A stretch of 64,000 nucleotides of DNA, taken from Lasiosphaeria ovina (lineage: Eukaryota; Ascomycota; Sordariomycetes; Sordariales; Lasiosphaeriaceae). The stretch covers positions 372,001-436,000 of the forward strand of contig JAULSN010000005.1 of the NCBI GenBank assembly GCA_033439765.1, given 5' to 3'. Shown one piece after another: positions 3,582 through 12,180 of this stretch (positions within the stretch are counted from its first letter, which is position 1; each line of letters begins with the position of its first letter). Position numbers and translations under genes: made by a program. The notes below the pieces were generated by a model that saw only the letters and a list, made by a program, of their open reading frames with translations, was not told the DNA's origin and made no database searches.

Positions 3582-3892
3582 ACTGCTCATACACGGCATG
3601 CGCAGCACAGAGTTCGACCGCGTCGTTGTCTGCCAGGCACGGAAACAAGGAGAAGGGGGGTCGGGAACAAGGAGAGAACCGAGGCCGGAGAGAAGACAGG
3701 AGGCCTCATGTTCACAGGCAACTTAGTGGCTTTTGCACGGCATGTCTGTTCAAGTGGATGGGAAACCAAGGGGCAAATATGTAATTAAGTCTTTACCAAG
3801 CATGGCGCAGGAGCACGCGTGGTTTTCATACATCAGCATCTGCCCAAACCAAGACGGACAACATAGACAAAGGTAGTCAATAAAGGAAAAAG
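3582..3892. other. Intergenic stretch
   Basis: Between the frameshifted 2EXR-like gene and the terminator of the tRNA gene. Nothing supportable seen. Confidence 0.5.
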
Positions 3893-3898
3893 AAAAAA
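3893..3898 (-). terminator. RNA polymerase III terminator (T6)
   Basis: Six consecutive T on the minus strand, beginning 17 nt after the last base of the tRNA gene. A run of at least four to five T is the usual Pol III stop in fungi, so the interrupted tRNA looks transcribable. Confidence 0.7.
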
Positions 3899-3914
3899 GA
3901 AATTATGTTTCCAA

Positions 3915-4053
3915 TGACCCTGACCCGATTTGAACCTGTTGATAACATGTTAGCGCCGTGATACCGATGTGTGTGTGAGTGTGCGCGTGGAGACAATCGT
4001 ACGGATAACCTTCCGATCTGGAGTCGAACGCGCTACCGTTGCGCCACAAGGCC
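3915..4053 (-). tRNA. tRNA-Trp(CCA), interrupted in the T-arm
   Basis: Two segments, 4053-4003 (51 nt) and 3935-3915 (21 nt), make a complete 72-nt tRNA. Acceptor stem GGCCTTG pairs with CAGGGTC, discriminator A; D-stem GCGC/GCGC; anticodon stem TTCGA/TCGGA with loop CTCCAGA, anticodon CCA; variable loop AGGTT; T-stem ATCCG/CGGGT closes loop TTCAAAT only if the 67 nt at 4002-3936 are removed. The A box TGGCGCAACGG is intact and a B box GGTTCAAATC is present at the 3' junction. The anticodon loop has no intron, so this is not the canonical 37/38 position. A T6 terminator follows. Could be a functional gene with an unusual intron or a tRNA gene disabled by an insertion. Confidence 0.8.
3936..4002 (-). 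other. Intron-like insert in the tRNA-Trp T-arm
   Basis: 67 nt lying between tRNA positions 52 and 53. Read as starting with GTACGA, it contains GCGCTAACAT 15-20 nt before the end and finishes with CAACAG, which is the layout of a fungal spliceosomal intron of typical length. It also carries a CA/GT dinucleotide-rich middle (about 3965-3990). Because the base at each junction is G, the cut could also be placed one base later (between 53 and 54). I do not see an obvious bulge-helix-bulge by eye. Confidence 0.65.
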
Positions 4054-4483
4054 TGTTGCTCTTTGTTGGAGTCGATGCGTTTAATCTCTCGTCTTGTCCT
4101 ACTCTCAATCACGTGCGGGCGGTGCGGGATATTTAGCCGAGTGGACTCTGGATGGCCGAAGGTCGGGGGGGTTTTGGGAAAGGGCATGTCTGGTGTAAGT
4201 GACAAGCAATTCTTTCCATTACGGTAGGTTACAAGAGCTTCAGCGGCGAAGATTTCGGTTTGAGGTTACTTGGATGCTCAATCTCTTTATAAACATGAAT
4301 TTCTTCAGTCTCGAGGCGCTTGCTTCTCGTAATCATGCTGCAAGGCTAGCTGCGGCAGCCACTGCCATCACATTGCGTTGGGCAAGATTCAAGCGCTCTA
4401 TGAGTTTGATAGGAACTAGCATCAGGCAAAGAAAAAGGTAGATCAGCATTGCTACAAACTCGACACGGCTAGGAAGGGCGCAT
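4054..4483. other. Intergenic stretch upstream of the tRNA
   Basis: No gene supported. A short plus-strand open frame at 4199-4441 has no recognisable motif. Confidence 0.45.
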
Positions 4484-5997: not shown

Positions 5998-7611
5998 CTA
6001 CTCGATGGCAGACAAACCCACTGACATATCTTTCTCTCTCAACATCCTCGCCGACACAGCTCCATACCCACTCATCAGCATGCTATGAACCCATCTTCCC
6101 GTCCTGAACTCTCCATTGAACAGGAAGTACATGGTGAAAGTCAGGAGACTAAGGGGCAGCGAAACGGCAAAATAGACCCAGAACATCTCTCCTCCAGGCC
6201 CATATGGGTTTGGCACCCCAAAGAGCGAGGCTACAAGCCCAAGCGGGATAAAGACGAGCCCAACAAATGTTAGCGCCTTCATACTCCTCGCCTCCTGGCG
6301 CGAGAGCGTCTGTTCTACCGACGCATGTCGGTTCCCAGAGATTCCTGCCAGTCCCGTGATCGATGAGCTGAGCACTTCAGCCTGGTGCCGAATGTCCCGG
6401 TAGCGCATGAGGAGGTAGCTAAAGTCGGCGCCGATATCTGCCCAGCCTACTGGGGCCGCCGCATCCGGCTGTTGACGTGGTGGCATCCTGCACTGCATAG
6501 TGATAGACTCTATGGCAATAACCCAGTCAGTCAGTCGCCACTGGAGAGCCTGTGTGTCGCTCCACTGCATCTCGATCGCGTCGGTTGTGAAGATGTCGAG
6601 CTTATACAGGTGCGACATGCGATGATGGATTGTATAGATCTGGGCTTGGAGGAACTCAGAGTGCTTGCGGAAGTGGCTGGCGATGATTTTCTGGCAGACG
6701 AGGAGGATTGAGTCTGGGTCGTCGGGATCCAAGAGCTTATGGTGCTCGACAATGTAGAAGCAGAGGTCTTCTAGCATGGAAGTTCGAGGCGGGCCCTTGC
6801 CTGCACGGAGCTGATCCGCAAAAGGGACGAAATCGAGATAGCCACCCTGGAAGAGAGTGCGCATGACAGGGATGGGCTTCGGATCGTGGGCAAGCCGGGC
6901 ATTTTTCAGGGGCGGATCGGTCACGACGACACCTGCCATCCCGCTTAGTCAAAGCCGTTCAAAATCAAGAACAAGACGATACCTACAATCCCAACCCCGC
7001 TCATCCCCTGCCCTCCGCCGTCTCCATACCGAGCACTTCCGCGATGAGATGTAAACATTGGAGAATTCCCCTAGGGTCCGCGTTGCGCTAATAAGCCGGC
7101 CCGTCTCGGCGCAGACGATTTTATTCTTGCCGTGGATATTTCCCTCGAGGCAAATCGGCTCTGCATAAGGTAGGATTACATGTTCTTGGGTAGCAGTAGA
7201 TGTCGGAAGAGCTATGCTGTCGTTTTCCAGACTCGAATCAATACTTGGCGGCGTGACCCGGTCGTGCTGCGCGAAGAGGGCCGGAGGGATGCTGAAGTGG
7301 GCTCCCAGAAGACCGATAAAGTCCCGATCCATCGCTTCCAGAATTATGACACAGCTGTTTGCCTCGCATGGTGTTCCTCTCAGATAGGTCTTGAAGCCTG
7401 CCGGGTCGTGGAAGTAGATAGGACCCCGGTATGCGCCATCAGGTGACGATTCAATAACGGCGACTTTGCCATTTCCTGGTCTTGGTGGCCATGGGCTCCG
7501 GGACGTCGCTTTTGGATCTCTTTGTCTAAGGCGTGGGTCGAAACCACAAAGACGCTTAATGAATCGTTGGTATTCCTCGTTGCCAGTAAGCCATTCGCCG
7601 CTGCGATCCAT
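5998..7611 (-). CDS. CorA-like Mg2+ transporter family membrane protein
   Basis: Two exons, 7611-6987 and 6932-5998, separated by a 54-nt intron (GTAGGT...TTTGAC...GGCAG), giving 519 aa. The N-terminal two thirds are soluble, with a helical region resembling the CorA cytoplasmic funnel (HRMSHLYKLDIF..., RYRDIRHQAEVLSSSITG). Two C-terminal transmembrane segments follow, about ALTFVGLVFIPLGLVASLFG and FWVYFAVSLPLSLLTFTMYF. The CorA GMN signature after the first helix is replaced by a GVPNPYGPGG-like loop, common in fungal CorA-like proteins of unknown transport activity, so Mg2+ transport is inference from family only. ATG at 7611 (MDRSGEWL) was chosen because the longer frame starts with TTG. 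Confidence 0.8.
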
Positions 7612-9269: not shown

Positions 9270-12180
9270 ATGGAGCAACTCCCCCTCCCGCGAGACCCGA
9301 TCCGGGGCCACGCGACGATCGCGCTCGCGAGCGCGCAGTTCGCGGACCCGGGCCCGTTCCTCACCTACGCGGAACGGTACGGCGATCTGCTGCGCGGCAG
9401 CCACCCGCACGTGCCGACGCAGGCGGACGCGCTGGCGGGCCGCTTCGCCGCGGCCGTGTCGAGCGCCGACGTCGCCAGCTACTACCAGGGCTGGCTGTTC
9501 TTCGCGCTGCTCGCCGAGCTGCTGGGCCCGGACCTGTACCGCGCGGACCGGTACCTTGATGTTACGATGGGCGAGGACGGCGAGATCGAGCTCGTCGCGC
9601 TGTCTACGCGTTACTTGCATGAGGACCTTGCCGCGTGGCGCGAGCGCGGCGCTCTGCGGAGGGTTGTTCGTGGTGACGCCTACCACGCGCACGTCGCGGC
9701 GTGCCTGGACGCTGCGGCCGGCGCGTTCGACGATCTGGAAGCTACGTTTCCGGGGTTTTTGGCTGTGGCGGCGGATGACATGCTGTGCGTGGCGGCGCTG
9801 GGCGAGACGCTCGACAGCTTTGTCGAGACGGCGCTGGAGCGCGGGCCGCTGCCCGACGACGGTGAGAATTCGTCTATATCTACATTTTTAACAAGAGCCC
9901 TCTAACACACCCGCAGGCCCGCCGGCGCCCAGCCTCACCATCGCGCAGGCGTCACGCAGCTGGCTGCAGAAAGTATCCTCGCTGCTCGTCCTCGACGGCG
10001 ACGCAGCCATGCTGGCGGCCGGGTGGTGTCCCAGCGACGTGCGGCGCGTGGCCGACTTCTTCAACACCATCGCGGCGTACTACTACTTCAGCCACTTCAG
10101 CCACTTCAAAGCCGACGCGGCGCACGGCAACGCGCACGCCGCGTGCCCGGCGTGGGGGTGCACACTCTCACCGCCATCATCATCGCCACCCCAGCAACCG
10201 CAGCACGTGGCGCCCGACTGCGCGTGCCCGGGCATGATATCCTTCTCCGAGGAGTCACTGATATCCATCTACGAGGAGGGCCACATCCCGTGCTTCAGCA
10301 TCGGGCGGCTCGAGGGCGGCGGGCTCGGCGTAGCCCTATCGTCGATCCCGCTCGACGGCGACCCGGCACACCGCTACGTGGCGCTGTCGCACGTATGGGC
10401 CGAGGGCCTCGGCAACGCAGCCGCCAACGCGCTGCCCTTTTGTCAAGTCGCCGACGTGCAGTACTGGGCGATGCTGGCGCAGCAGTCGGTCGACGGCGCC
10501 GCAGCCAGGGTGCACGACCCGTTCGCGCGCGGCATCGTGCAGGCTAGCTCGCAGGGCACGCAGCAGGTCCACCTGTGGATCGACACGCTGTGCTGCCCGG
10601 CGACGCCGGGCTACGGCAAGAACCTGTGCTTGGCGCGCATGCGCGACATCTACGCCCACGCGCACGCGGTGCTGGTGCGCAGCGCGACGCTGAAGGGGTT
10701 CGCGCTGGCGCCGTACATAACCGACCCGCGCCGCGGCGTCATGGACCCGGCCGCAGCGCTGTTCCTCTCGCCGTGGATCCGCCGCATGTGGACGCTGCAG
10801 GAGGGCGTGCTGGCGGGGCTGGCCCACGATGTTCGGGGCGTGGGCGAGCGGCTGCTGCTCGGCTACGGCGATGCGCTGCTCTCGCTCGAGAGTGTCGTGG
10901 CGCTGCTCAAGCAGGCGCCCACCCACGAGGTCGCGCTCGCGTTCGACATGCTCGGCCGCTTCTCGCAGCTCAGCCCGGCCATGTACAGCCTGGAGGACCG
11001 AGACAGTGACAGCGATGGCGGCGGCGCCTTCTTCCTGCACGTGCTGACGACGGCGCTCAAGTTCCGCAGCGTGTCGGTGGCGGCCGACGAGGTGGTGTGC
11101 CTGGCGACGCTGCTGGGGCTACGCGTGGCCGGATCGCGCGGCGCGGTGCCGCTGATCGGCGCCGGCCAGACGCCGCAGGACGGCATGTGCGAGCTGTGGC
11201 GCCGCGTCGAGGCCCATGGCCGCGGTATTCCGGCGGATATTGTCTTCTCCACCGTCCCGCGCGTCGCTGTTGCTGGCTTCCGCTGGGCGCCCCGCACGCT
11301 AATCCAGACCGGCAAGTACGGGCCGCTGTACCCGGTCGGCCGCGCTGCGCGCATCACGCCGCGCGGGCTCGAGGTGCGGTTCCGCGGCGTGAGGCTCAGC
11401 TGCGCGAGTCCTGAGATCTTTGGGCGCAGGTTGCTGAGTAGCGCTGAAGGAGAGAAGCCTGAGGCTGCCGAAGAGGACTTCACGCGCGTGATGATCGTGC
11501 AGGTTCCCTCGAGCGACGGCGATCCGGAAACGGCGCGGTGGTTTGCGCTACGCATCCGGCGCATCGGCGAGTACCGCGACGCCGCCGGCGCCACCAAACT
11601 CGACGAGGCAGACGATAACACGGACCGCAGAGACCCGTACGCGCTCCTCAAAGCCGGCAAGCTGGCGCTGATTCTCCGGCACGCTGGTTTTGTTGAGGAC
11701 GACGACGAGATCGGCCAGGGGCTGCTCGTCAGCGTTGTGGATGGGGATGACGCGGCGGCGGCAGTGCCCAGTCAGGGCCAGAGCGAGGGGAACACCAACG
11801 AAAACAAGAACACAAGCAGCGGACTACAGGCGCGCACCGAATATCCCGTGTCGATAACGCCCCTACTCTCCGGGGCAAGCCAGATCGCGGCGTCCTGCAT
11901 GGCGTGCCTCGAGCGGCTGCAGGTAGCAGTGAACAGTGAAGCGGCGGAGTGGACCGACGGCGATGCGGTCGAGCGGCTGCTGCGGCAGGCGGCGCGCGAC
12001 ACGGTGGCGGCGTCCGAAGCGCTTAGTGCGGCCCTGTTCGCCGAGGCGCTGAGCGGCGAGGCGTCGACGACGGCTGAGAGGGTGCTGGATACGTTTGTAA
12101 GGCACGTCAATCGCACGGCGCGGTTTGGCGGCGTCGTTGGCACGGTCACGGGAGAGGACCAGCTGTGGTGGGTTGATTGA
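9270..12180 (+). CDS. Large HET-domain protein
   Basis: Two exons, 9270-9861 and 9917-12180, with a 55-nt intron (GGTGAG...CGCAG), giving 951 aa. HET-domain proteins mediate heterokaryon incompatibility or act as fungal NLR-type effector domains. The HET core is split in the usual order: RYVALSHVWAEGLG near residue 349, LWIDTLCCP near 418, and RRMWTLQEG near 486; the first two blocks are spaced more widely than in short HET proteins. The roughly 340-residue N-terminal region carries a Cys-rich PDCACPGMISF segment just before the core. The C-terminus is unrecognised. The coding region is extremely GC-rich and its flanks are much less so. There are no NACHT, ankyrin or WD repeats. Allorecognition function is inferred from the domain only. 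Confidence 0.85.

Follow-up and report, generated by a model that had tools for sequence, protein, structure and literature searches.

Genes for U6, U3, and ascomycete rRNA are known to carry introns of the mRNA type, and the removal of tRNA introns has been ascribed to a separate, protein-only pathway. According to the available text of a 2017 survey, frequent interruption by an intron was known, among small structured RNAs, for U3 and U6 only (PMC5832005); the consensus given there for fungal U3 introns is a GTRWGT donor, an RCTRAY branch motif 6 to 36 nt before the acceptor, and a YAG acceptor. The U6 RNA of S. pombe is a Pol III transcript, and its intron is removed by the spliceosome, as described in the available part of PMC8917221. 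The word element "spliceosom" does not occur in the available main text of a 2014 review on tRNA introns (PMC4090602), which describes inserts in the D- and T-arms of eukaryotic tRNA genes mostly as features of pseudogenes, except in nucleomorphs and C. merolae. Among the matches listed, the open-licence PMC literature, searched by title and abstract start, yielded no report of a tRNA gene with a spliceosomal intron. An earlier note on the DNA studied here had held that a GT-AG insert in the T-arm of a Pol III-transcribed tRNA gene would be a new situation, and this fits the open-licence literature as represented by the available text of PMC4090602 and PMC5832005.

The window analyzed here, meaning the whole stretch of 64,000 nucleotides, contains a gene of this kind. 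It comes from Lasiosphaeria ovina, a Sordariales ascomycete, and the genome searched for related loci comprised 51.7 Mb in 32 contigs. Five tRNA-Trp genes were found in that genome, and the T-stems of two of them, to judge from their sequences, quite probably contain short and functional spliceosomal introns of the U2 type. The evidence set out below suggests that the mRNA-splicing machinery may take part in producing a tRNA.

A tRNA-Trp gene split in the T-arm

The tRNA-Trp(CCA) gene of the window (L001) lies on the minus strand at 4053-3915. By ARAGORN on the joined exons, exon 1 (4003..4053) comprises the 5' strand of the acceptor stem, the D-arm, the anticodon arm, the variable loop, and T-stem positions 49-52, and exon 2 (3915..3935) comprises G53, the T-loop, the 3' strands of the T-stem and the acceptor stem, and the discriminator A. 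The intervening 67-nt insert (3936..4002), a proposed spliceosomal intron, has the layout GTACGA ... GCTAACAT ... CAACAG. As read from the sequence, the proposed 5' splice site GTACGA is at 3997..4002, the proposed branch motif CTAAC is at 3949..3953 with the branch A at 3950, and the proposed 3' splice site CAG is at 3936..3938, all on the minus strand. The A box of the internal Pol III promoter is presumably TGGCGCAACGG (4036..4046, minus strand) and the B box presumably GGTTCAAATC (3927..3936, minus strand), both assigned by consensus. The insert sits between the two boxes, lengthening the A-to-B distance by 67 bases, and its last base is also the first G of the B box. A run of six T's on the same strand (3893..3898), a likely Pol III terminator, starts 16 bases past the gene.

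The earlier note had described a T-arm split by 67 nt at 4002-3936, an insert with these same terminal and internal motifs, and an intact A box, B box, and T6. The coordinates proved exact, and every one of these elements is there. The note had also stated that a perfect 72-nt cloverleaf is restored when the insert is removed. Indeed, the insert-free exons give a complete 72-nt tRNA-Trp(cca) cloverleaf by ARAGORN, but "perfect" is slightly too strong a word for a structure with four G-T wobbles in the ARAGORN drawing (two in the acceptor stem and one each in the anticodon stem and the T-stem). Minimum-energy folding of the joined exons, unlike ARAGORN, puts another structure ahead of the cloverleaf, and this counts against the reading that we favor. 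The intact precursor was not recognized as a tRNA by ARAGORN, nor by Rfam at the gathering score. In a permissive Rfam scan, 4053-3988 matched the tRNA family at 24 bits, below the cut-off of 29, and the 3' part of this match is taken from the insert. Because both the insert and exon 2 begin with GT, the insert can be drawn in three equivalent registers, 52/53, 53/54, and 54/55, with one and the same product.

Five tRNA-Trp genes, two with T-arm inserts

An identical set of five tRNA-Trp genes was recovered whether the interrupted or an uninterrupted gene served as the query. L003 and L004 are uninterrupted, with a one-base difference at position 16 in the comparison of tRNA-Trp products, and L005 has a 7-nt intron at the usual position after the anticodon. 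L001 and L002 have inserts in the T-arm. The listing of further tRNA-Trp genes that the earlier note had proposed thus added four, one of them interrupted like the gene of the window. This second gene, L002, lies at C1:5360313-5360442, on a different contig from that of L001, and its 58-nt insert, GTACGTTC ... ACTAACAA ... CAAAG, is located at exactly the same point of the T-stem as the 67-nt insert of L001.

The joined product of L002 is identical to that of L005 (72/72). The L001 product matches both at 71 of 72 positions, with a G in place of A at exon position 41; the change is found in L001 alone among the five genes, and it keeps the base pair (T-G for T-A). For L002, as for L001, the precursor gave no tRNA with ARAGORN, and the joined form gave a tRNA-Trp. 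Neither gene shows the decayed exons or lost promoter elements that mark tRNA pseudogenes; the cloverleaf, the A and B boxes, and the T-run are kept in both. An exact 25-base tRNA-Trp pattern had no match in genome and viral contig collections without fungi.

Splice signals and the mRNA introns of the same genome

GTACG, CTAAC, and a terminal AG are common to the two inserts, which are otherwise very different. The branch motifs, GCTAAC and ACTAAC, agree with the RCTRAY sequence 6 to 36 nt before the acceptor given in the available text of PMC5832005, and the branch-to-end distance measure is 14 for L001 and 11 for L002. Both donors are close to the GTRWGT of the fungal U3-intron survey, GTACGA of L001 with two departures and GTACGT of L002 with one. 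Measured against YAG, the acceptor of L001 is CAG and that of L002 is AAG, a trinucleotide that also ends one of four protein-mapped mRNA introns. The double departure of the L001 donor and the AAG end of L002 count against the reading of the inserts as spliceosomal introns.

How often such a layout would fall into the T-arm slot by chance was estimated from local segments, taken from the window and from the other loci fetched, real introns included. The full splice layout, defined as GT[ACG]NG, a suitably spaced CTRAC, and AG, occurred in 30 of 425,120 segments of 67 nt for the L001 slot and in 39 of 426,308 segments for the L002 slot, or 7 to 9 per 100,000. A bare GT...AG occurred in 0.66% and 0.68% of the local segments.

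Protein-coding genes of the window provided introns for comparison. Open reading frames at 10009-12180 (plus strand) and 5998-6939 (minus strand) in this region carry a HET (heterokaryon incompatibility) domain and a CorA-like domain. The annotated protein P0001, itself a gene prediction, could be matched exactly to the window with four introns of 131, 77, 73, and 58 nt, which have CTGAC or CTAAC near the end and terminate in AAG, CAG, CAG, and TAG. A stricter intron finder, used first, gave 2 candidates. A looser one, requiring GT[ACG]NG, CTRAC, AG, and flanks that resemble coding sequence, found 21 candidates (1 of them a mis-ended form of a P0001-mapped intron) versus 5 in a reversed-sequence control. 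Twenty of the 21 candidates are 48 to 116 nt long and one is 135 nt; GTACG donors occur in two, and the donors seen include GTACGT and GTACGG. The tRNA-Trp inserts fall within the range of the window's introns and candidates in length, branch distance, and donor. The earlier claim that the insert has exactly the layout of short mRNA introns in this genome therefore holds broadly, on the strength of the four P0001 introns and of the 21 candidates against 5 in the control. Absence of TTTT from the inserts had been considered as an indication of constraint by Pol III and was dropped, with 16 of the 21 candidate mRNA introns likewise lacking it.

U6 genes with mRNA-type introns

Rfam gave 10 U6 matches in the genome, 9 of them above the cut-off. 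Two of the eight U6 loci first read carry mRNA-type inserts, both at one site: a 60-nt intron in L062 (C1:1028232-1028339, minus strand) and a 58-nt intron in L063 (C5:92575-92686, plus strand). In both, GCCTTCGGGCAATATGGTCAAT is followed by an insert that runs from GTAGGT through GCTAAC to CAG, and then by TTGAAACGAT and the remaining U6 sequence. When joined, L062 and L063 match the uninterrupted L057 at 101 of 101 and 100 of 101 positions, respectively. Since these U6 genes carry them, mRNA-type introns do occur in Pol III-type genes of this organism.

U6 is multicopy here, and L058-L061, L064, and L072 are variant uninterrupted genes (e.g., ...GGTCACACTGAAACAAT...). A further locus, L073 (C12:451559-451629, minus strand), is a worn U6-like copy with an apparent remnant of a GT...GCTAAC...CAG intron. 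In its sequence, L073 looks like what a dead copy becomes in this genome, and the tRNA-Trp genes do not resemble it.

Relationship of the two inserts and their flanks

Alignment of the whole L001 and L002 inserts gave a score of 12, reached by none of 2,000 shuffles; without the splice signals the similarity is weak (p 0.053). The same score of 12 was obtained between one tRNA-Trp insert, that of L001, and a U6 intron. Given that p value for the middle and the equal score with the U6 intron, the two inserts may be either old and worn or gained separately at one site. The upstream flanks of the two genes show no similarity (640-odd of 1,000 shuffles reach the score; p 0.643). Their T-rich downstream flanks align with a score of 23, reached by none of 1,000 shuffles. 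Downstream flanks of 31 other tRNA genes scored at most 19 against one gene and 22 against the other, the best being within one point of 23, and the likeness may reflect the make-up of terminators or shared descent. The flanks are thus compatible with old and worn inserts as well as with separate gains, and the splice signals and the exons appear to be the parts that were kept.

A genome search for copies of the 67-nt insert, as the earlier note had suggested, returned no second copy; the inserts of L001 and L002 each find only themselves in a search that skips very common words. An introner-like element would be present in many near-identical copies, and that search found none for either insert.

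Other tRNA and small RNA genes

An RF00005 search, in which 63 of 1,379 candidates were scored, included L002 among the 14 of 63 rows of at least 84 nt. L001 is not among the rows, and a search of this type can therefore miss genes interrupted in the T-arm. The other 13 long tRNAs have their extra length at the anticodon loop (9 by alignment and 4 by eye). DNA searches with single tRNAs returned 16 Lys, 15 Ala, 1 Val, and 6 Phe rows. Visual inspection of all 6 Phe loci, of 2 long Lys loci, and of 2 further long Ala loci placed their additional bases at the anticodon loop. Some tRNA copies (Gly, Lys, Arg, and Asn-like; L050-L054 and L082) are degenerate or truncated, and L082, a truncated tRNA-Lys copy, has 4 extra bases in the T-arm. 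Among the tRNA genes scored, a set in which some isotypes were never met, intron-type T-arm inserts are seen for tRNA-Trp, and other tRNAs may have them as well. All 47 matches to 5S rRNA (47 of 2,894 candidates scored) are 119 to 124 nt long, and the one SRP RNA (27 of 388 candidates scored) has 291 nt versus 293 in the model.

Proposed maturation and alternative explanations

We consider it fairly probable that the spliceosome makes functional tRNAs from these genes, with the T-arm introns removed before tRNA-Trp folding, trimming, and modification, and with the introns either kept or twice gained at one site, as in U6. Pol III would transcribe the gene, with the A and B boxes as promoter and the T-run as end point, giving a precursor that would be unable to form the T-arm before splicing. 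U1, U2, and the spliceosome would then recognize GTACG as the donor, CTAAC as the branch motif, and the terminal AG, and would excise the insert as a lariat. Only after this would the T-arm form, presumably followed by end trimming, T-loop modification, and CCA addition. Splicing would precede end trimming and T-loop modification because an unspliced T-arm cannot close properly, by analogy with a red alga in which Pus4 is inactive on a precursor with a T-arm intron (available text of PMC9602550).

The earlier note had offered both maturation in an unexpected way and silencing of the gene. We favor maturation because there is a second insert at the same site with the same signals, because the exons are intact, and because U6 is interrupted in the same genome; the L002 insert, the intact exons, and the U6 inserts likewise uphold the note's view that the insert looks spliceosomal. 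Silencing is the main rival, although we regard it as unlikely: L001 and L002 would be dead genes into which intron-like DNA was inserted, for example by reverse splicing and reverse transcription, and their tRNA would no longer be made. Consistent with this, inserts in the D- and T-arms of eukaryotic tRNA genes mostly affect a single member of a large synonymous set and are interpreted as pseudogene features in the available text of PMC4090602, and the truncated tRNA-Lys copy has 4 extra bases in its T-arm. Uninterrupted tRNA-Trp genes exist, and L001 and L002 may be dispensable because the three tRNA-Trp genes without a T-arm insert could supply the cell. However, the exons of L001 and L002 are intact, with 1 difference in 72 and the pair kept, whereas dead-looking copies in this genome are visibly worn (the tRNA-Lys, -Arg, and -Gly remnants, including L082, and the U6-like L073), and the two inserts, different in other respects, have both retained their splice signals. 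If the two insertions happened recently, the intactness of the exons would say little. A very recent insertion might have left its source copy, and none was found in the non-exhaustive search.

Removal of the inserts by the tRNA splicing endonuclease (TSEN) at a noncanonical site, as reported for T-arm introns in a red alga, strikes us as very improbable. Precedents exist in a C. merolae tRNA-Ile intron at 53/54 in the T-arm (PMC9602550, available text) and in the archaeal intron positions, which include 53/54 (PMC4090602, available text), one of the three registers here; moreover, many nucleomorph ectopic introns lack a defined bulge-helix-bulge, according to the available text of PMC3978253. 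Against this, when the precursors were checked for a bulge-helix-bulge, as the earlier note had proposed, none formed: under the strict motif with a 4-bp central helix, only 1 or 2 of the 4 central-helix pairs were present in all three registers of both genes, and a strict bulge-helix-bulge was rejected for every register. Nor would such a motif need GT, CTAAC, and AG. A canonical TSEN intron at 37/38 is excluded by the position of the inserts at 52/53, 53/54, or 54/55.

Self-splicing introns are far longer than 67 or 58 nt, the lengths of the two inserts. Group I and II introns and other Rfam elements were rejected, as 4,227 Rfam families gave no ribozyme match over 3700-4300 at E values up to 10.

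That the loci are chiefly Pol II noncoding transcripts, in which an ordinary intron happens to fall within a tRNA-like stretch, is scarcely credible: Pol II is the usual partner of the spliceosome, and same-strand open reading frames of 100 amino acids (3903-4205) and 112 amino acids (L074:4748-5086) wholly or partly span the loci, but neither has a Pfam match, both loci retain their A and B boxes and T-runs, and it is the T-rich downstream flanks, not the upstream ones, that align.

If maturation by splicing is true, the spliceosome can serve a tRNA precursor, and two RNA-processing worlds meet in one tRNA, whose folding and end maturation wait for splicing. The tRNA-Trp genes would also be a new test bed for the entry of introns into noncoding genes, with U6 of the same genome as a ready comparison.

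Comparison with known systems

Canonical eukaryotic tRNA introns (37/38, TSEN) also interrupt tRNA genes, and L005 has one; the inserts of L001 and L002 differ from them in lying at another position, in forming no bulge-helix-bulge, and in carrying spliceosomal signals. Ectopic T-arm introns in C. merolae, nucleomorphs, and archaea resemble the inserts in being in the T-arm, around 53/54. They differ in their removal, where known, by the splicing endonuclease in the bulge-helix-bulge manner, and the available text of their descriptions does not mention a GT-CTAAC-AG layout. Ribosomal RNA is a Pol I transcript. The introns of ascomycete 18S rDNA (Cubero et al. 2000 and Bhattacharya et al. 2000, as cited in the available part of PMC11889510) are, like the proposed tRNA-Trp introns, of the mRNA type and in a noncoding RNA gene, but the host RNA is an rRNA. 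Fungal U3 snoRNA introns share with the inserts a small RNA as host, GT-AG ends, an RCTRAC motif, and, in some genomes, paralogues with and without an intron. They differ in that the host is no tRNA and that they are almost always in the U3 5' stem-loop (PMC5832005, available text). In the U6 introns of S. pombe (PMC8917221, available part) and of other fungi (Canzler et al. 2016, as cited in the available text of PMC5832005), the host is a Pol III-type gene for a small structured RNA, with a short GT-AG insert, a CTRAC branch motif, and copies with and without the insert, and such genes are present in L. ovina too. The difference is that U6 is part of the spliceosome and a tRNA is not, and that the tRNA-Trp insert splits the T-arm between the A and B boxes.
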